Assembly (NCBI GenBank): GCA_017459635.1
Contig: JAFUCO010000065.1
Span: forward strand, 1-61,334
DNA from: Blautia sp.
GTDB lineage: Bacteria; Bacillota; Clostridia; Lachnospirales; Lachnospiraceae
Reading direction: 5' to 3'
Length of the DNA: 61,334 nucleotides
Shown: positions 8,276 through 58,882 of the stretch, piece by piece
Layout of the letters: each line of letters starts with the position of its first letter
Position numbering within the stretch: the first letter of the stretch is position 1
The notes under the pieces: generated by a model
Told to the model about the DNA's origin: nothing
The model's input: the letters and a program-made list of their open reading frames with translations, nothing else
The model's database searches: none
Made by a program: the position numbers and the translations under genes

Positions 8276-8327
8276 TAAGACGGGGGACGGTTCTCTGTCT
8301 TAAGACAGAGAACCGTCCCCTGTCTTA
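8276..8327. repeat. dispersed palindromic element (REP-like), copy 1
   Basis: Near-perfect palindrome with arms TAAGACgGGGGACGGTTC.. and ..GAACCGTCCCCTGTCTTA, joined at TCTTAAGA. It overlaps the 3' end of rarA and provides its last eight codons and its TAA. Sister copies are at 19307, 26419 and 28936. Confidence 0.92.
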
Positions 8328-19306: not shown

Positions 19307-19368
19307 GTAAGACAGGGGACGGTTCTCTGTCTTATGAAAATAAGACAGAGAACCGTCCCCTGTCTTAC
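19307..19368. repeat. dispersed palindromic element (REP-like), copy 2
   Basis: Arms GTAAGACAGGGGACGGTTCT.. and ..AGAACCGTCCCCTGTCTTAC are perfect; the loop is ATGAAAAT. It lies between murD and ftsQ, where ftsW and murG stand in many relatives. Confidence 0.95.
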
Positions 19369-26418: not shown

Positions 26419-26470
26419 TAAGACAGGGGACGGTTCTGTGTCTTAAGACACAGAACCGTCCCCTGTCTTA
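26419..26470. repeat. dispersed palindromic element (REP-like), copy 3
   Basis: Perfect palindrome TAAGACAGGGGACGGTTCTG.. joined at GTCTTAAGAC. It overlaps the 3' end of lgt and supplies its last eight codons and stop, exactly as copy 1 does for rarA. The inner part reads CTGTGTCTT instead of CTCTGTCTT, and the change is matched on both arms. Confidence 0.95.
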
Positions 26471-51772: not shown

Positions 51773-53122
51773 ATGATGAAAGTCAAAAAAATCACATCCG
51801 TATTAATGGCGTGTATGCTTGCCTTATCACCATGCACTGCAGCATTCGCAGAGGAAAATGAGGCTGCCGAAGCAGCTGAAAGTGCCGGCGTTGAAGAAAA
51901 GATCGAAGTAGTTGGATTAACGCTCACAAAACCGGAATACTTCGTTTCAGGATTAAAAGGTATCCTGAAGACTTATCCTATGGGGCAAAAGACAGAAGAT
52001 ATATATGCCTGTGATTTTTACTATATTGCAATGGACAAAGATGAGTTCAATGCAAAGCAGGAAGCCAGTGAGCTGTCCGAGGAGGATCAGGAGGCTGTTC
52101 GAAATGCCATCTTCCCGTTTATTGAAGTGCTGGCTATTGACAATAAAGCAGATCTTGCTGAACTGATCGAGAACGATTTCAGTGAAGACGCCACTGAAGA
52201 TATGTTTAACGAGATCGGAAAAACAGATAATTATACATTCTATTATCTCGAAGCTGCCACTAAAGACGAGTTCGTTTCCAGAATAGAGCCTGAGTTTGCG
52301 GAAGAATTCAATAAAGTATATGATGACCTGATCGATGCCCTTAAAAACGCTTCGTTCTTTGATCCGATGGCTTTTGGATCCGGAATGGTCGGAACGACCG
52401 TCAGCTTTGAGACAACTGACGCAGATGGAAATACCGTAAAGAGCGAGGATATTTTTGCTGAGAACGAAGTGACCATGCTCAATCTCTGGGAGACCACATG
52501 CTGCGCATGTGTAGGCGAGATGCCGCTCCTTGTGGAGATGAACCACAGCTATGCCGGCAAAGGTGTTGCTGTTGTCGGTATCTGTGCAGACGCAGATTCA
52601 AATAATGAAGATTTCCAGCAGATCCTCGAAGAAAACGGCATGGACTATCTGAACCTTCTTCCTTTCGAGGGCATGAGTGATATGTTCCCGGTAAATGGCT
52701 GGCCGACTTCCTACTTTATAGGCAAAGATGGAACTGTCCTTACTGTACCGGTTGAAGGTGCTCCGTCCGATGCGTCATATTATACAAATATTATTGACAA
52801 GCTGCTGGCCGGTGACGCTGTAACAGCAGCAGATATTGAGCCCGAATCCAATTCTCATCCTAACGATGCTGGAGTTTACCGTGTGCATGTTACCAACGGC
52901 GACGGAGACCCTGTTGAAGGAGTTTATGTTCAGTTCTGCTCCGACACATCCTGCATGATGGGTCAGACAGATGCTGACGGATATGCATCTTTTGAAACTG
53001 AGGAAGGAGTCTATACTGTTCACATTCTGAAGGCACCGGAAGGATACGAGGGAACATCTGAAGAATTCAAGACAGAAGATACCTTCAGCGATATTTGCGT
53101 GGTACTGCAGAAGGCAGCATAA
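51773..53122 (+). CDS. secreted thioredoxin-fold (TlpA/ResA-like) protein with Cna-like end
   Basis: 449 residues. Export signal (residues 1-26, ending AFAEE); a 170-residue domain of unknown type (30-200); a TlpA/ResA-like thioredoxin fold (about 208-345) with active-site WETTCCACVGEMP (C243/C246) and cis-proline loop GWPTSYFIGKDG; then an 85-residue beta domain (GVYRVHVTNGDGDPVEGVYV, TDADGYASFETEEG) like carboxypeptidase-regulatory or Cna-B repeats. Probably a thiol-disulfide protein outside the membrane. GGAGGAAAAA before ATG. Convergent with the anti-sigma gene and separated by a terminator. Confidence 0.85.
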   Translation: MMKVKKITSVLMACMLALSPCTAAFAEENEAAEAAESAGVEEKIEVVGLTLTKPEYFVSGLKGILKTYPMGQKTEDIYACDFYYIAMDKDEFNAKQEASELSEEDQEAVRNAIFPFIEVLAIDNKADLAELIENDFSEDATEDMFNEIGKTDNYTFYYLEAATKDEFVSRIEPEFAEEFNKVYDDLIDALKNASFFDPMAFGSGMVGTTVSFETTDADGNTVKSEDIFAENEVTMLNLWETTCCACVGEMPLLVEMNHSYAGKGVAVVGICADADSNNEDFQQILEENGMDYLNLLPFEGMSDMFPVNGWPTSYFIGKDGTVLTVPVEGAPSDASYYTNIIDKLLAGDAVTAADIEPESNSHPNDAGVYRVHVTNGDGDPVEGVYVQFCSDTSCMMGQTDADGYASFETEEGVYTVHILKAPEGYEGTSEEFKTEDTFSDICVVLQKAA

Positions 53123-53165: not shown

Positions 53166-54782
53166 TCATTTTACGACAGGGGACGGTCCATTGCCGTGAA
53201 ATATGGCAGTTTCGGCAGCTGCTGCTGCCTGAAGGAAGTCTTCTGAGGGGGAAGCCTGATCCTGCGTGGCGCTTATCAGGATTGTTCCGGCTTCGGGTTC
53301 TATTGCGGTAAGTATGCCCGTATCTGAAATCATGTTGTTTTCTTTATCACTTTTCTGTCCTTCCGGAAGATTGGTGTCTGAATTGATCCCTGTGTCAGAT
53401 TCGCTGTCCGGGCTGACTGTGAGTTCAAGTGAATTACTAAGGATCTCTCCGGATGACGTATTAAATTCATAAAGCACTGCACAGCTTTGGCCGGGTTCAA
53501 GCTGCTTTTCATATACTCCATCAGAACCGGTGCCAAGATTAAGGCATGTGATCGTTTCCGTAGTATTCTGCTGTTCCGTGTTTTCAAGAGAAAATGTAAT
53601 CCCGGTTTGTCCCGCCCTTATAAGGATGAGCATCAGTGTTGATTCCGGATTCCAGGGGCACGGAGCTGTTTCAGCTCTGTATGCCGCTATCTTTCCTTCT
53701 GGAGTTTCTTCTATGCTGTAAGAAAAACTGTTGATCAGAGTATCCAGGTTTGCAGGATTATTCTCTGAGGTGTATTCCGATATGTCAGAATGCTCTTCCA
53801 CCGAACGTTCTGTTTCAGCAGCAGACTCCTCTTCTGCAGCATAATCATCTTCTACTGTATAATCCTCTGCAGCATAGTCTTCTTCAGCAGTAAACTCTTC
53901 TTCTGGAGCATATTCTGATTCGTTCATTTCCGGGAGCATTCCGGCTGTTTCTTCATTTATTGCTTCTTCGGCAGTGTCCAATACATCAGCACTTTTTTCG
54001 TATGACAATACTGTTTCATCTTCTTCTGCCTCTGCATATATCGATGCACTTACAGCTGATGTTTCACCTGCTGCCAGCGGTGCATTGGCAAATTCTTCAT
54101 CTGCGACTGACTGTGCACTCTCTGCTGCCATAAACAAACTGTTTTCGGCGGCTTCATTCTGAAGCATCTCCCCGGTAATCACGTTTTCTGATTCATTGGA
54201 TGTTTCTGGTTTATCTGAGCTTAATGCTTCTTCCATGACTGATGCTTCTTCTATGCTTGACGCTTCTTCTATGCTTGATGTTTCTTCTATGTTCGATGCT
54301 TCTTCTGTTCTTGATGCTTCTTCAGTTCTTGATACTTCATCCGGGCTTGATACTCCTTCAGGTCTTGCCGATTCTTCCGGCAGCATGGAGTCATCATATG
54401 AGGATTCTGAGCTTTCATCTTCCGTCTCCTGTATAAAGACTGTATTCTGAACCTCAGATGCCTTTTCTCTCATGTTCATCGTAGTCTGTACGGTCAGTAT
54501 TACTATAATACCGGCAGCGGCGGAGACCAATCCGGTAAGAAAGCGACGGAATATTATTTTTGTCGATGAGGGGCTGCCGGCTTCTTTATTCTTTTCTGTC
54601 TCTTGTGATGCCGTTTGTTCCGTGCCGGCATAATTATGGAAGGCTGCGATCTTTTCGTTTTCCGTTACTGCAAAGTCCTGCGGAATCGTCTTCTTTTCAG
54701 GCAGAGCTTTTTCTATGCGGTCCCAGAGATCCGGAGTTTCTTTATTCATGTATTTTCTGTATTCCTCTTCAAAGTGCTTCAT
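53166..54782 (-). CDS. anti-sigma-like membrane protein with VWA-N-like ectodomain
   Basis: 538 residues. Cytoplasmic start (MKHFEEEYRKYMNKETPDLW) as in anti-sigma proteins beside ECF sigma genes; one membrane helix (78-100); a Glu/Ser repeat linker (SRTEEASRTEEASNIEETS, 149-186). The outer region resembles the VWA protein encoded next door at three collinear places: INSFSYSIEETPEG ... APCPWNPESTLM (about 350-386), LEPGQSCAVLYEF (425-443) and SEDFLQAAAAAETAIFHGNG (513-531); the MIDAS core is absent. The last codons (GPSPVVK) and stop come from a half-copy of the palindromic repeat, so the end may be truncated. AGGAGGTG before ATG; 14-bp overlap with the sigma gene. Confidence 0.8.
   Translation of the reverse strand: MKHFEEEYRKYMNKETPDLWDRIEKALPEKKTIPQDFAVTENEKIAAFHNYAGTEQTASQETEKNKEAGSPSSTKIIFRRFLTGLVSAAAGIIVILTVQTTMNMREKASEVQNTVFIQETEDESSESSYDDSMLPEESARPEGVSSPDEVSRTEEASRTEEASNIEETSSIEEASSIEEASVMEEALSSDKPETSNESENVITGEMLQNEAAENSLFMAAESAQSVADEEFANAPLAAGETSAVSASIYAEAEEDETVLSYEKSADVLDTAEEAINEETAGMLPEMNESEYAPEEEFTAEEDYAAEDYTVEDDYAAEEESAAETERSVEEHSDISEYTSENNPANLDTLINSFSYSIEETPEGKIAAYRAETAPCPWNPESTLMLILIRAGQTGITFSLENTEQQNTTETITCLNLGTGSDGVYEKQLEPGQSCAVLYEFNTSSGEILSNSLELTVSPDSESDTGINSDTNLPEGQKSDKENNMISDTGILTAIEPEAGTILISATQDQASPSEDFLQAAAAAETAIFHGNGPSPVVK
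53175..53194. repeat. half-copy of the palindromic element
   Basis: GACAGGGGACGGT followed by diverged CCATTGC; only one arm is present, at the 3' end of the anti-sigma-like gene. Confidence 0.65.
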
Positions 54783-55314
54783 ATCCGCACCTCCTCAGCT
54801 TGCCGACAGCCTGGCGGTATCTCCAGGTCACAGTTCCCATCGGGACCTTCAGGATGTCTGCTATATTCTGAAACGTCAGTTCCCCGGCTACCTTAAGGTG
54901 GACTATTTCCCTTTCGGCAGGGCTTAATCCGGCCAGAGCCTGTTCGATTGAAATATCATCAAGTACTTTTTCATATCCCGGGTCATCCCCTGAGTGTTTT
55001 TCAAGCTCCTGTTCTATGTTTTCCGCCTCGAGGGCTATCTCCCTCTGATTGCGGCGCAGGAAATCAAGGGCCAGGTTTCGGGCAATGACGGTAAGCCATC
55101 GCCTGTATCCTCCTCCGGGAGTATACTTGTCGGCAATATCCCACAGTTTTAGAAAGAACTCGACGCTCAGATCCTCCGCATCGGAATAATTACCTGTGAT
55201 GCTGTACATCAGGTGGAAAATGTATTCCTGGCAGGATTCATATATTTCTTTCAGTGCCTCTTTGTCACCGCCCCGTATGCGGTTCATGCACTCATCGAAT
55301 CTGCTGTTATCCAT
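54769..55314 (-). CDS. ECF-type RNA polymerase sigma factor
   Basis: 181 residues. Region 2 (YIFHLMYSITGNYSDAEDLSVEFFLKLW and RRWLTVIARNLALDFLRRN) and region 4 (ALAGLSPAEREIVHLKVAGE, TFQNIADILKVPMGTVTWRYR) are typical of extracytoplasmic-function sigma-70 factors. The gene overlaps its presumed anti-sigma gene by 14 bp, so free sigma should depend on the membrane protein's state. GGAG precedes ATG. Confidence 0.95.
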   Translation of the reverse strand: MDNSRFDECMNRIRGGDKEALKEIYESCQEYIFHLMYSITGNYSDAEDLSVEFFLKLWDIADKYTPGGGYRRWLTVIARNLALDFLRRNQREIALEAENIEQELEKHSGDDPGYEKVLDDISIEQALAGLSPAEREIVHLKVAGELTFQNIADILKVPMGTVTWRYRQAVGKLRRCGYEAL

Positions 55315-55339
55315 ATTGATCTCCGATTATGTAGAAACA

Positions 55340-55373
55340 ACGGCAGGCTGCCGTCAGAGACGGTGCCTGCCGT
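55340..55373 (-). terminator. terminator between the VWA and sigma genes
   Basis: ACGGCAGGC / GCCTGCCGT stem with an inner ACCGTC/GACGGC extension; TTGTTTCTA follows on the minus strand. It would separate transcription of the VWA gene from the sigma/anti-sigma pair. Confidence 0.7.
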
Positions 55374-55405
55374 GCCGGTCACATTACAAATCTTCAGGCC
55401 GCTTA

Positions 55406-57154
55406 TCAGTAATCCTGTCCTGAAAGTCTGCGTACCAGATAACGGAATTCCTGACGGTATTCATCGCCCGGTTCAATGTCTTTCAGCACTTCAGTAAGAT
55501 GCTCAAGAGAAGAAATTCCCTTCTCGTCGCTGTTTTTCAGGATCATGGCAAATTCTGCCGCTGCTGCTGCGAACCTGAAATCATCGTCAGGGGCATCAGT
55601 ATATTCCTCTTCAGTGACCGGATAGTCATTTTCAAGAGCAGTATCGGTGCCCGGTTCCTTATAGCGGATATAAACTGTCGCAAATTCCGAGCTGTAATCT
55701 GCTGTTCCGGATTCTTCAGCCGCGGGCTGCTTTCCGCCTCCCTGATATTTCAAGGTGACCGCCTGGCTGCTTCCTGCCGGGATCAGTTCGTAAAGCGCTA
55801 CAACGCTGTGTCCTGCGCCTATCTCGCCGGCATCTTTTGTATCATCCCGGAAATCTGTTGCGGACATAAGGCGGTTTTCATAACCTATCAGACGATATGC
55901 ATTGACTTTTTCCGGATTGAACTCCACCTGAAGCTTGACATCATCTGCTACTGTAAGCAGAGTTGAGCCCATCTCCTCTACAAGCACCTTTTTCGCCTCC
56001 AGGAGAGAATCGATATAGGCATAATTCCCGTTTCCGCAGTCTGCAAGGCGCTCCATATTGTCGTCACGGTAATTATACATTCCAAATCCGAGTACGGAAA
56101 GATAGATTCCACTGTCCTTCTTCTCGGTGATCAGTCTTTCCAGTTCCTCCGGTTCTGACACGCCTATATTCAGATCGCCGTCGGTCGCCAGGATAACCCT
56201 GTTGTTTCCTTCCGGTATGAAGTTTCTCCCGCCAATTTCATATGCGCGCTGTATACCGCCCTCACCATAAGTCCCGCCTCCGGCTTCAAGGCCCTGAATC
56301 GCATCCCTTATGGCATCCTTGTCATCACATTTCGCACCGTCAAGCACGGTATTCACACCGTCCGCATATGTCACGATGGAGACGGTATCATTTTCATCCA
56401 GCTGATCCAGCAGCTGCAGGAAGGACTTCTTTAAAAGCGGCAGCTTGTTGTCATCGCTCATCGAGCCTGACACATCGATCAGGAATACCAGATTCTGCTC
56501 CGGAATTTCCGAAAGATCGATGTCCTGGGTCTTCATGCCAATGAACATCAGCTGATGCTCAGAATTCCAGGGGCACGGGCCTACTTTTGTCGTGACGCCA
56601 AACTTATCGCCGTTTTCAGGATCTTTAAGATCATATGAAAAATAATTTACAAACTCTTCCGGCCTTACGGCATCGGCATAAATGTCATAGGCTGACCATC
56701 CGTTTTCTATCATTCTGCGGACATTTGTATACGATGCAGTATCCACATCTGCAGAGAAGGTTGAAAGCGGTTCTGAAGCAGTAAGCTTAAAGGTGTTTTC
56801 CTCTGTAGTCTCATACTTTTCATTTGGATATACATCGTATGGATAATAGCTGTCGTAGAAATCGTAGCCACCAGCGTACGCCGGAGAGGACATACCCGCT
56901 TTTGGCGCCGCAGCGCTGGCATATGATGCCTCCTCTGCCATCTCGTACTCATATAAGCCGCCGTCATCTATATCAGCATATTCTTCGATTTCCTCGTAAA
57001 AGTCATCTCCTCCGGTATAGCCCGTTTCAGGTGCTTCAATGCGCTCTTCATAGAGGCCGTTCGCCGGATTCTGCTGCACTGCAGTCATGATCCCGGCTCC
57101 TGTCAGTACAAAACATAGAATTGCCGATATGATCTTGAAAATAAACTCCATCAT
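55406..57154 (-). CDS. membrane-anchored VWA-domain protein (YfbK family)
   Basis: 582 residues from ATG at 57154 (AGGTGGAAGAG upstream). N-terminal signal anchor (FIFKIISAILCFVLTGAGI), a Tyr/Glu/Asp-rich spacer (residues 35-118), a VWA-N domain (VRPEEFVNYFSYDLKDPE, VGPCPWNSEHQLMFIGM), the VWA domain with a complete MIDAS start DVSGSMSDD (227-231) and ATDGDLNIG, and a YfbK-type C-terminal domain (AGHSVVALYELIP, DDDFRFAAAAAEFAMI). VWA domains bind protein ligands through a metal ion. It is next to the ECF sigma pair and shares sequence with the anti-sigma protein, so a sensory or effector link is inferred. Confidence 0.9.
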   Translation of the reverse strand: MMEFIFKIISAILCFVLTGAGIMTAVQQNPANGLYEERIEAPETGYTGGDDFYEEIEEYADIDDGGLYEYEMAEEASYASAAAPKAGMSSPAYAGGYDFYDSYYPYDVYPNEKYETTEENTFKLTASEPLSTFSADVDTASYTNVRRMIENGWSAYDIYADAVRPEEFVNYFSYDLKDPENGDKFGVTTKVGPCPWNSEHQLMFIGMKTQDIDLSEIPEQNLVFLIDVSGSMSDDNKLPLLKKSFLQLLDQLDENDTVSIVTYADGVNTVLDGAKCDDKDAIRDAIQGLEAGGGTYGEGGIQRAYEIGGRNFIPEGNNRVILATDGDLNIGVSEPEELERLITEKKDSGIYLSVLGFGMYNYRDDNMERLADCGNGNYAYIDSLLEAKKVLVEEMGSTLLTVADDVKLQVEFNPEKVNAYRLIGYENRLMSATDFRDDTKDAGEIGAGHSVVALYELIPAGSSQAVTLKYQGGGKQPAAEESGTADYSSEFATVYIRYKEPGTDTALENDYPVTEEEYTDAPDDDFRFAAAAAEFAMILKNSDEKGISSLEHLTEVLKDIEPGDEYRQEFRYLVRRLSGQDY

Positions 57155-57356
57155 CTCTTCCACCTGTCCTTTCTTTAAAAAAGATACTTCTGATCGTACG
57201 GTCCTGAAAACCGGGTGTGTTTTCCTCATCAGTGTGTTCTGTATATGATACGGCCAGTGAAAACATTTTTTATGGGGATTTTTAAAAAAATTTATATAAA
57301 GATGCTTAAGTATTTTATCCTTTTAAAAAAAGACAATGAACGGTTCATTTCCTGTA

Positions 57357-58382
57357 TCATGATATGCTTAATGTCTGAGCGTATTTGAACCGGATAATAT
57401 CATTAGGTGCAGTTTTGGTGTATGCGTCTTCCTGATGCATTGTTTCTACTATCATATTTTTAGAAGCCTTACCAAATTGCCGGATTACTGCGTCAAGTAT
57501 TTCTTTGTCCTCTGTTGTTAAGTGATGATAATCTTTGTTCTCTGTGGGAAGGAATTTATATCCTGTCCCATCACCCATTTCGATCTCCTCACAATGGATA
57601 GTGCTTAAATCAACAATCGATTCGTATGCCACAGGAACGGCACCCATAGGTAAAGCACGGTAAACAAGGCCTGAAATGGAATGTCCTCGGCGTTTATACG
57701 ATAATGCATCTGCATACCACAGCAATTTCATCAGCTTAACACGAAACAAACCTGTCACCATCGAAGAATTGGCATAGTAGTGAATCATATCTACAACTGC
57801 ATCTAAAGACAGCACTTTGCCTCCGTTCATCTCAGAATTGCGAATGAAACGGGCATATTTTGACATAATTGCGCTTTTCAGATAAATGTCGTGGTCCTGC
57901 TCGAAAAGTGTGGTTCCAGCCTCCATGTATTTATTATAGGCTGCAGCCGAAAGAGATTTTTTTCCGGCACGAAGTAATTGCAAAAACCATTCAGGATCAG
58001 AATCCAGCTTGCGGAGGATTGTATCATGAGCGATATCCTGCACTTGATGGCTCTCGTAACGTGTAATTGTTTTTGCCCCCCAGCCAAGCAAGAGGCATAG
58101 ATCACTCTGACTAATACCGTATCTGGCACGAATGTCCGTTATTTGACCGGAGGTAAGCAGCCCCATCTTCTTACGATATGCATTTTTCATAGAAATATCA
58201 TTAGAAGAAATCTGTTGTTCATTTGCATATGCTTCATTTGCCCGGTCACAAAAGCAATATTCAGCACTATAATCCACAGGTACACTTTTGAAAACGGTGT
58301 GCTCTACTGTGCTGATAGTCTGTACCTTATGCTCTTCCATACAACAAGGGCAAAGAATGTTGGCTTCTCTTAAGACCTTCAA
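57357..58382 (-). CDS. antitoxin with MqsA-like zinc finger, HTH and Panacea (DUF4065) domain
   Basis: 341 residues. Residues 1-60 hold a zinc-finger-like set C11, C14, C43, C45 (CPCC ... CFC); 75-140 an XRE/MqsA-type helix-turn-helix (GISQSDLCLLLGWGAKTITRYE); 190-335 a SocA/DUF4065 region, now called Panacea (LFRVKLMKLLWYADALSYKRRG, GLVYRALPMGAVPVAYESI), a domain known to neutralise many unrelated toxins. The start overlaps the upstream toxin-like gene by ATGA. It should bind and repress at the palindromes 58851-58882 and 58912-58929. Confidence 0.85.
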   Translation of the reverse strand: MKVLREANILCPCCMEEHKVQTISTVEHTVFKSVPVDYSAEYCFCDRANEAYANEQQISSNDISMKNAYRKKMGLLTSGQITDIRARYGISQSDLCLLLGWGAKTITRYESHQVQDIAHDTILRKLDSDPEWFLQLLRAGKKSLSAAAYNKYMEAGTTLFEQDHDIYLKSAIMSKYARFIRNSEMNGGKVLSLDAVVDMIHYYANSSMVTGLFRVKLMKLLWYADALSYKRRGHSISGLVYRALPMGAVPVAYESIVDLSTIHCEEIEMGDGTGYKFLPTENKDYHHLTTEDKEILDAVIRQFGKASKNMIVETMHQEDAYTKTAPNDIIRFKYAQTLSIS

Positions 58383-58834
58383 AGTACATCACCTCCTGAC
58401 AGTTTTCTATAAGGAAACATATCCGGCGTAAAAGGAATTTCAGCATAGTGAAAGGACATCACAAAAGTTGTATGGTTTCCATATGCTGATAGCAGTTCCA
58501 CACGAATCTTGATATAGACATCTCCCTTGCCATCGTATACTTTTCCAAACTCACGCATTTCGCTTCTATTTGGAAATCGCAAATCTTTGACAGTCCGCAT
58601 ATATTCTTCCACAGACAATGTCTTCAGCTCCTGTTTCAATGCATCTACCGGATTCTCATCCGGAAATAAGTCTGCAACTGTAAATTGATTTGTATATCTT
58701 GGATTACGATGACAATCTACCTGTCGCTCAATCTGAAAATCTACCTTTGCATTGTGCTCTAATGCATATCGAAGATCCCGCAAATAAGATCTTACTTCGA
58801 ATTCACTCTCGGTCCTCGTTTTTTTATCATTCAA
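58379..58834 (-). CDS. probable MqsR-like toxin, TTG start
   Basis: 151 residues from TTG at 58834, which has GGAGGG eight bases upstream. The frame is open to an ATG at 58876, but that ATG overlaps the -10 box and lies before the expected transcript start, so it cannot be used from this promoter. The second half (LSVEEYMRTVKDLRF, KVYDGKGDVYIKIRVELL, FVMSFHYAEIPF) resembles MqsR of the RelE-like mRNA interferases; the first 60 residues are extra. Gene order is toxin then antitoxin, as in mqsRA. The resemblance is by eye and moderate. Confidence 0.7.
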   Translation of the reverse strand: MNDKKTRTESEFEVRSYLRDLRYALEHNAKVDFQIERQVDCHRNPRYTNQFTVADLFPDENPVDALKQELKTLSVEEYMRTVKDLRFPNRSEMREFGKVYDGKGDVYIKIRVELLSAYGNHTTFVMSFHYAEIPFTPDMFPYRKLSGGDVL

Positions 58835-58850
58835 ATTAAAAACCCTCCGG

Positions 58851-58882
58851 CATATAATGGTATCACCTGATACCATTATATG
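58851..58882 (-). promoter_or_regulatory. 32-bp perfect operator palindrome covering the -10 box
   Basis: CATATAATGGTATCA CC TGATACCATTATATG: two perfect 15-bp arms. The TATAAT of the toxin-antitoxin promoter is inside it. Confidence 0.9.

Follow-up and report, generated by a model that had tools for sequence, protein, structure and literature searches.

A Blautia membrane anti-sigma protein with an ectodomain homologous to a YfbK-type VWA protein that lacks the vWA domain

In a 61,334-nucleotide stretch of the genome of a gut bacterium, Blautia sp. (contig JAFUCO010000065.1 of assembly GCA_017459635.1, hereafter the window), three genes on the minus strand encode a YfbK-like protein with a von Willebrand factor A (vWA) domain, here called the VWA protein, an extracytoplasmic function (ECF) sigma factor and a membrane anti-sigma protein. 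Judged by its sequence, the ectodomain of this anti-sigma protein is a YfbK-type VWA protein without the vWA domain, which bears the metal ion-dependent adhesion site (MIDAS), and five of 64 genomes of the genus (named relatives: Blautia) encode the anti-sigma protein and a complete VWA protein as one fusion. Because five relatives carry this fusion, the surface protein and its switch look like one self-controlled unit. Homology, fusions, gene linkage and a shared promoter motif lend support at the sequence level to a reading that we favour tentatively and to which we give somewhat less than an even chance: the locus would be a dedicated, self-controlled ECF sigma circuit with the surface YfbK-type VWA protein as its conserved target, and the coreless anti-sigma protein would be a trimmed fusion whose vWA domain is now present in trans.

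Results

The source genome is a 2.67 Mb assembly of 109 contigs (66.8% complete), and it was compared with 64 genus genomes and a wider set of 397 family genomes, from which and from elsewhere 13 genus loci, 44 other-genus loci, 27 class-level loci and the best 80 named loci among the matches listed were considered. Some contigs of the fetched loci end early, which bears on the counts of VWA genes without a sigma gene. Four contigs of genus relatives, all labelled Blautia and three of the four from deer or sheep guts, recur in the named collection; four of the five fusion contigs are the same contigs as in that collection (Blautia), so that the genus and named fusion counts are not independent. 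An anti-sigma protein of the window's type is found in one relative, at locus L055 of genome G356.

The sigma factor falls into the sigma70-ECF family, with regions 2 and 4 matched in Pfam (Sigma70_r2, 3e-14; r4, 6.5e-9) and a match to TIGR02937 at 2.5e-27, and the neighbouring VWA protein is a full YfbK-like member, with PF12450, a VWA domain with the MIDAS motif DVSGS and PF12034 all over the Pfam cut-off. The anti-sigma protein is of the membrane type: its gene shares 14 overlapping bases with the sigma gene, and the protein has a short N-terminal part, common to the proteins behind the same sigma factor in relatives, followed by one transmembrane segment, assigned by hydropathy alone. A hydrophobic anchor segment is present in both the VWA protein and the anti-sigma protein. 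The zinc-binding anti-sigma (ZAS) motif is HxxxCxxC in the N-terminal domain, and the anti-sigma protein lacks it, its first cysteine being residue 375. No RsgI family was listed for it in Pfam up to E 10, a search in which HMMER filters drop weak matches.

The original prediction held that three collinear segments of the ectodomain match the adjacent VWA protein while the MIDAS domain is missing, and our comparisons bear this out. The two proteins share, in the same order, a PCPWN hairpin, a C-terminal beta part and the first helix of the tail; the anti-sigma protein has no vWA/MIDAS domain and also lacks the first half of VWA-N. The PCPWN segment matches the neighbouring VWA protein over 41 aa by BLASTP (1e-7), and PF12450 aligns to the anti-sigma protein at model positions 54-93 (E 4.7e-4; 20.5 bits, below the Pfam cut-off of 25); in a whole-genome search with PF12450, the anti-sigma protein was the second of two matches (E 1.6e-4). 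Segments 2 (GQSCAVLYE) and 3 (DFLQAAAAAETA) are weaker than segment 1, and PF12034 (YfbK_C) went unmatched in the window anti-sigma protein by Pfam at E ≤ 10. With PF12450 below its cut-off and PF12034 without a match, the homology rests instead on our own profiles, which do match.

When the vWA columns were cut out of the VWA profile, the window and L055 ectodomains aligned to it over 198 columns (profile-profile probability 98.4, E 6e-15), a significant similarity, whereas the local alignment to the uncut profile was limited to 51 columns of the N part (E 5e-10). A coreless profile run over 4217 non-VWA open reading frames (ORFs) of the fetched loci ranked the L055 protein at 4.1e-8 and the window protein at 5.6e-6, with L138 next at 0.014 in the C part only. 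Our C-domain profile over 4217 ORFs placed L055 at E 0.17, behind L138 at 0.0074, and did not list the window anti-sigma protein at E ≤ 1. Taken as single candidates, the C-terminal segments were equalled by 3 of 2000 shuffles for the window and by none of 2000 for L055, and, once the genus was excluded from the profile, by 3/2000 and 1/2000, respectively. In the reverse search, a two-row ectodomain profile (window plus L055) run on the 64 genus genomes to E 0.1 found 18 places: besides the two queries there were 16 matches in VWA proteins, of which 13 fell in the N part and three in the C part. Among these three, the VWA protein of fusion G316 scored best (E 3.9e-5), ahead of the VWA proteins of the window (0.0015) and L055 (0.049). 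In the family, the ectodomain profile matched in 25 of 397 genomes, and the matches besides the window's ectodomain cover the N part only and lie in frames of 529-700 aa, as in VWA proteins. The case for homology is firm because L055 was joined to the window in the profile, and these two are the only coreless ectodomains found across both genome sets.

A likeness due to chance or low complexity could appeal to Pfam matches under the curated cut-off, to the large share of the anti-sigma protein that is of low complexity, and to a C part that by itself is inconspicuous among the 4217 ORFs. Against the BLASTP and profile-profile values, and a reverse search whose places besides the two queries fall in VWA frames, we regard this explanation as extremely improbable; chance resemblance was ruled out for the N part by BLASTP, and for the C part by the shuffle and profile-profile comparisons together with the reverse search.

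In the AlphaFold prediction for the VWA protein, read as secondary structure and confidence rather than coordinates, the vWA domain is seated between beta parts 185-209 and 401-514, and the same arrangement is reported for ArnB (PMC12852372). The prediction has a mean pLDDT (predicted local distance difference test) of 80.7, and 360 of 582 residues reach at least 90. Structural alignment of this window protein covers 330 residues with ArnAB chain 8s05_A and 333 residues with 4fx5, with high root-mean-square deviations of 7.0 Å and 6.0 Å, respectively. The anti-sigma ectodomain appears to keep segments of both beta parts and to have lost the inserted vWA domain. Its own model, like the other a single-chain prediction, is of low confidence (mean pLDDT 57.7); among its 11 elements, six coincide with an element of the VWA model (in VWA numbering, helix 162-171, strands 186-193, 200-208, 450-458 and 492-496, and helix 524-539), two do so partly, two do not and one is unmapped. 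Helix 162-171 and strands 186-193 and 200-208 were placed without alignment rows to lean on.

The three genes recur together in relatives. PF12450 proteins occur in 13 of the 64 genus genomes and the sigma factor (at least 50% identity) in nine, and, among matches to E 1e-20, all nine of these sigma genes adjoin a VWA gene; a tenth match, L199 at 42%, is paired with a DUF4349 anti-sigma protein (E 4.9e-65) in a genome without PF12450. The 13 genus loci comprise five with a sigma gene and an anti-sigma::VWA fusion, three in the order VWA-sigma-anti-sigma, of which the window is a fourth case, and five with VWA alone. The order sigma-anti-sigma-VWA is frequent in other Lachnospiraceae (15 of the 44 other-genus loci, beside two sigma-VWA and 27 VWA alone), and the best 80 named loci among the matches listed include 17 of that order, four fusions, two VWA-sigma-anti-sigma, two anti-sigma-VWA with a broken sigma frame and 55 without sigma. 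Residues 1-110 of the anti-sigma protein match the five fusions by BLASTP at 4e-8, 1e-9, 1e-7, 4e-5 and 5e-11. The proposal of a single sigma/anti-sigma/VWA module, which would have been undermined had the anti-sigma and VWA genes failed to co-occur, is thus upheld by co-occurrence, the shared promoter motif and the five fusions.

Trees of 45 sigma rows and 45 VWA rows both group the nine genus members, at 100/99 for VWA and only 90/88 for sigma. The three-gene operons L090, L114, L115 and L126 are sister to these nine in the VWA tree (97/93), a placement that the sigma tree leaves undecided. In the sigma tree, the fusions group together in 2% of bootstraps and are not a single clade, a pattern to be expected if the fusion is older. 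The coreless ectodomain is likely to be the trimmed remainder of an anti-sigma::VWA fusion, with the VWA protein now in trans.

A promoter-like motif, CCATAAA-N15/16-CGTAT, precedes many of these operons and VWA genes, and it stands before the operon's first gene, whichever that is (VWA in the window, L053, L055, L058, L173 and L174; sigma in the others). Exact sites lie before 27 of 42 operons, with N16 in 21 and N15 in 6, and none of the 42 has an exact motif with spacers of 12-14 or 17-20. In the VWA genes' own upstream regions, a match of at least 11/12 was found for 29 of 41 sigma-linked genes versus 17 of 85 others; the five fusions were counted as misses, as was L055, for which the ORF call made the frame too long. 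Control spacers of 14, 17 and 18 gave 0/41 for sigma-linked VWA genes, and spacer 14 gave 2/85 for the others. Across 1.33 Mb of VWA loci the exact motif occurs at 71 distinct sites; 44 of them precede VWA, 22 precede sigma and five lie elsewhere, so that 66 of 71 lie within 420 bases upstream of VWA or sigma starts, with 0.3 sites expected; no exact site with spacers of 12-14 or 17-19 was present there. Three of the five sites elsewhere (L134, L168, L163) are at VWA or sigma starts probably misplaced by the ORF call. The window has one exact site, and with up to two mismatches six sites versus 3.7 expected; exact sites were found in none of the 27 class-level loci. Because the exact motif clusters before VWA and sigma genes, the VWA gene is probably the conserved target of this sigma factor, which would use CCATAAA-N16-CGTAT; the three genes would be co-transcribed. 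The two remaining exact sites away from VWA and sigma genes are L160:102, where a 329-aa ORF begins 42 bases past the first base of the site, and one in L079.

Several results weigh against the self-controlled circuit with a trimmed fusion. The exact site is missing from 15 of the 42 operons, and VWA genes without sigma are common in the fetched loci (55 of the best 80 named, 27 of 44 in the family, 5 of 13 in the genus). The VWA tree, contrary to the sigma tree, joins the fusions in one weak clade (63/24; 64% of bootstraps), and the aligned ectodomain (45 aa) is too short for a tree. The ectodomain is only 32% identical between the window and L055, compared with 83% for VWA, 69% for sigma and 67% for the N-terminal segment (residues 1-48), and such fast divergence would speak against a conserved docking face. 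Finally, two of the four genomes with the order VWA-sigma-anti-sigma (L053 and L058) carry an unrelated anti-sigma ectodomain.

The last two observations fit a different explanation, in which the coreless ectodomain is no more than a relic in decay, the VWA protein is regulon output, and the anti-sigma protein senses something else, or nothing specific, via its linker or generic cleavage. The window copy is also shorter than that of L055, without the last tail helices that L055 retains, and a repeat half lies over its end, which may have caused the shorter tail; the rarity of coreless cases points the same way. On the other hand, both copies are open reading frames that keep the PCPWN, LNL and LYE features, third codon positions differ most (0.79 vs 0.53 and 0.40, a result that the protein-made alignment favours), and the order of structural elements is partly retained in the low-confidence model. 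Because the ectodomain diverges fast and L053 and L058 have another domain, we consider the relic almost as likely as a live sensor, with a probability of about one in three.

In L053 (4880-6070) and L058 (7968-8942), the unrelated C-terminal part of the anti-sigma protein is about 130 aa long and has no convincing Pfam match. Palindromes resembling repetitive extragenic palindromes, ACAGGGGACGGTTC, are paired in the window at 8280-8323, 19312-19363 and 26423-26466, with one unpaired half at the anti-sigma gene's 3' end (seven matches vs 0.04 expected), and a similar repeat lies between VWA and sigma in L053 and L058.

Table 1. Positions of the genes, domains and signals of the sigma/anti-sigma/VWA locus in the window
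Feature	Position	Strand	Remark
Putative sigma-type promoter CCATAAA-N16-CGTAT, preceding VWA, the operon's first gene	57248..57275	-	Sole 0-mismatch site in window
YfbK-like VWA protein of 582 aa; residues 8-26 form an N-terminal hydrophobic segment; residues 17-109 poorly ordered	55406..57154	-	
vWF_A N-domain (PF12450) of VWA protein; strands 185-193 and 201-209, PCPWN	56546..56824	-	Pfam, model
vWA (MIDAS) domain of VWA protein; DVSGS at residues 227-231	56006..56494	-	Between two beta parts in model
YfbK_C (PF12034) of VWA protein: second beta part and helical tail	55424..55966	-	Pfam, model
Hairpin in the gap from VWA to sigma; may be a partial terminator or attenuator	55336..55376	-	Weak in window
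ECF sigma factor, 181 aa, regions 2 and 4	54769..55314	-	Pfam, TIGR02937
Anti-sigma protein, 538 aa	53166..54782	-	Overlaps sigma gene; one hydrophobic segment
Anti-sigma N-terminal segment with PDLWDRIE, presumed cytoplasmic sigma-binding part	54639..54782	-	Role inferred
Anti-sigma transmembrane segment, residues 81-99	54486..54542	-	Hydropathy 2.06
Anti-sigma acidic low-complexity linker, residues 107-341	53760..54464	-	Much shorter in L055
Coreless ectodomain part 1: second half of VWA-N (PCPWN hairpin), residues 345-389	53616..53750	-	
Coreless ectodomain part 2: GQSCAVLYE strand, residues 431-439	53466..53492	-	
Coreless ectodomain part 3: DFLQAAAAAETA helix, residues 515-526	53205..53240	-	
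Half of repeated palindrome over last anti-sigma codons	53176..53189	+	

The hairpin between the VWA and sigma genes folds at -30.9 kcal/mol over 94 nt in the window, where 11 of 200 shuffles fold as well; hairpins are also found at this gap in all three same-order relatives, with shuffles as good in 10/200 (L055), 0/200 (L053) and 0/200 (L058). Beside the locus, the gene at 51773-53122, convergent to the anti-sigma gene, encodes a thioredoxin-like protein (AhpC-TSA) whose C-terminal part is weakly Ig/prealbumin-like, and at 57357-58876 the gene for a 341-aa SocA/Panacea antitoxin-domain protein (with a sub-cut-off MqsA-antitoxin match) overlaps that for a 165-aa protein without a Pfam match, a pair that looks like a toxin-antitoxin pair. 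In other Clostridia (L271, L274-L280, L282-L286), YfbK-type VWA proteins carry N-terminal repeats like S-layer homology (SLH) domains, with SLH found by Pfam for L274 only.

Discussion

On the self-controlled circuit that we favour, one sigma-type promoter ahead of VWA, sigma and anti-sigma would drive the operon in the window. The fusion would have come first, placing the VWA protein at the sensor position of the anti-sigma protein; in the window, the sensor scaffold would remain on the anti-sigma protein and the vWA part would be supplied in trans by the neighbouring VWA protein. The signal would be the condition of the envelope VWA protein, possibly its ligand, assembly or amount, relayed to the ectodomain through contact in trans; the anti-sigma protein would then be cut or shifted to set the sigma factor free, and free sigma would raise VWA, sigma and anti-sigma until balance is restored. 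For release from membrane anti-sigma factors, PMC8103513 calls proteolysis the most frequent route and gives shape change as another.

A more specific proposal, already made in the original prediction, is that the shared domains let the anti-sigma ectodomain pair with the VWA protein and that the ligand state of the MIDAS sets sigma release. Such gating is plausible, given a domain and a hydrophobic anchor segment common to both proteins, their fusion in cis in five relatives and adjoining genes behind one promoter motif, but the fast divergence of the ectodomain, its replacement by another domain in L053 and L058 and the low confidence of its model count against it, and we hold it to be unlikely. 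As a broader notion, an anti-sigma protein bearing the scaffold of its regulon's product minus the ligand domain might join that product as a dummy subunit and free the sigma factor when ligand or assembly changes the product, an idea that we find doubtful, if marginally less so.

The locus is like ECF sigma/membrane anti-sigma pairs of the RpoE-RseA type (PMC8103513) in its two-region sigma factor, its overlapping one-pass anti-sigma gene and its own promoter motif, and unlike them in the coreless VWA ectodomain and the lack of a zinc anti-sigma motif. No anti-sigma protein with a YfbK-type or coreless VWA ectodomain was found in the literature searched, which covered few subscription journals. 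RsgI anti-sigma factors serve SigI rather than an ECF sigma factor. In Clostridium thermocellum, according to PMC12203970, several membrane anti-sigma factors of this kind differ in the outside signal sensed; the membrane anti-sigma proteins here likewise vary in their outer domain, and differ from RsgI in having an ECF sigma factor and no listed RsgI domain. The neighbour has the complete make-up of a YfbK-like VWA protein (PF12450, VWA and PF12034); the anti-sigma ectodomain shows homology to its first and last parts and differs in being without the vWA domain and half of PF12450. We know of no protein of the ArnB, 4fx5 or Sec23-24 type that occurs as a coreless copy on an anti-sigma factor. 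That core architecture (ArnB, the Catenulispora VWA protein 4fx5, Sec23-24; PMC12852372) belongs to archaeal phospho-signalling, coat or plasma proteins, unlike an anti-sigma protein.

The locus is an example of a signalling protein from which an inserted vWA domain has apparently disappeared, leaving parts of the host sandwich in place. YfbK-type VWA proteins are widespread and, to our knowledge, have no known role. Through the sigma factor, the exact motif and the fusions, one branch of them is linked to envelope signalling in Lachnospiraceae, and the promoter, the fusion proteins and the natural domain deletion may offer a handle on what YfbK-type VWA proteins sense.

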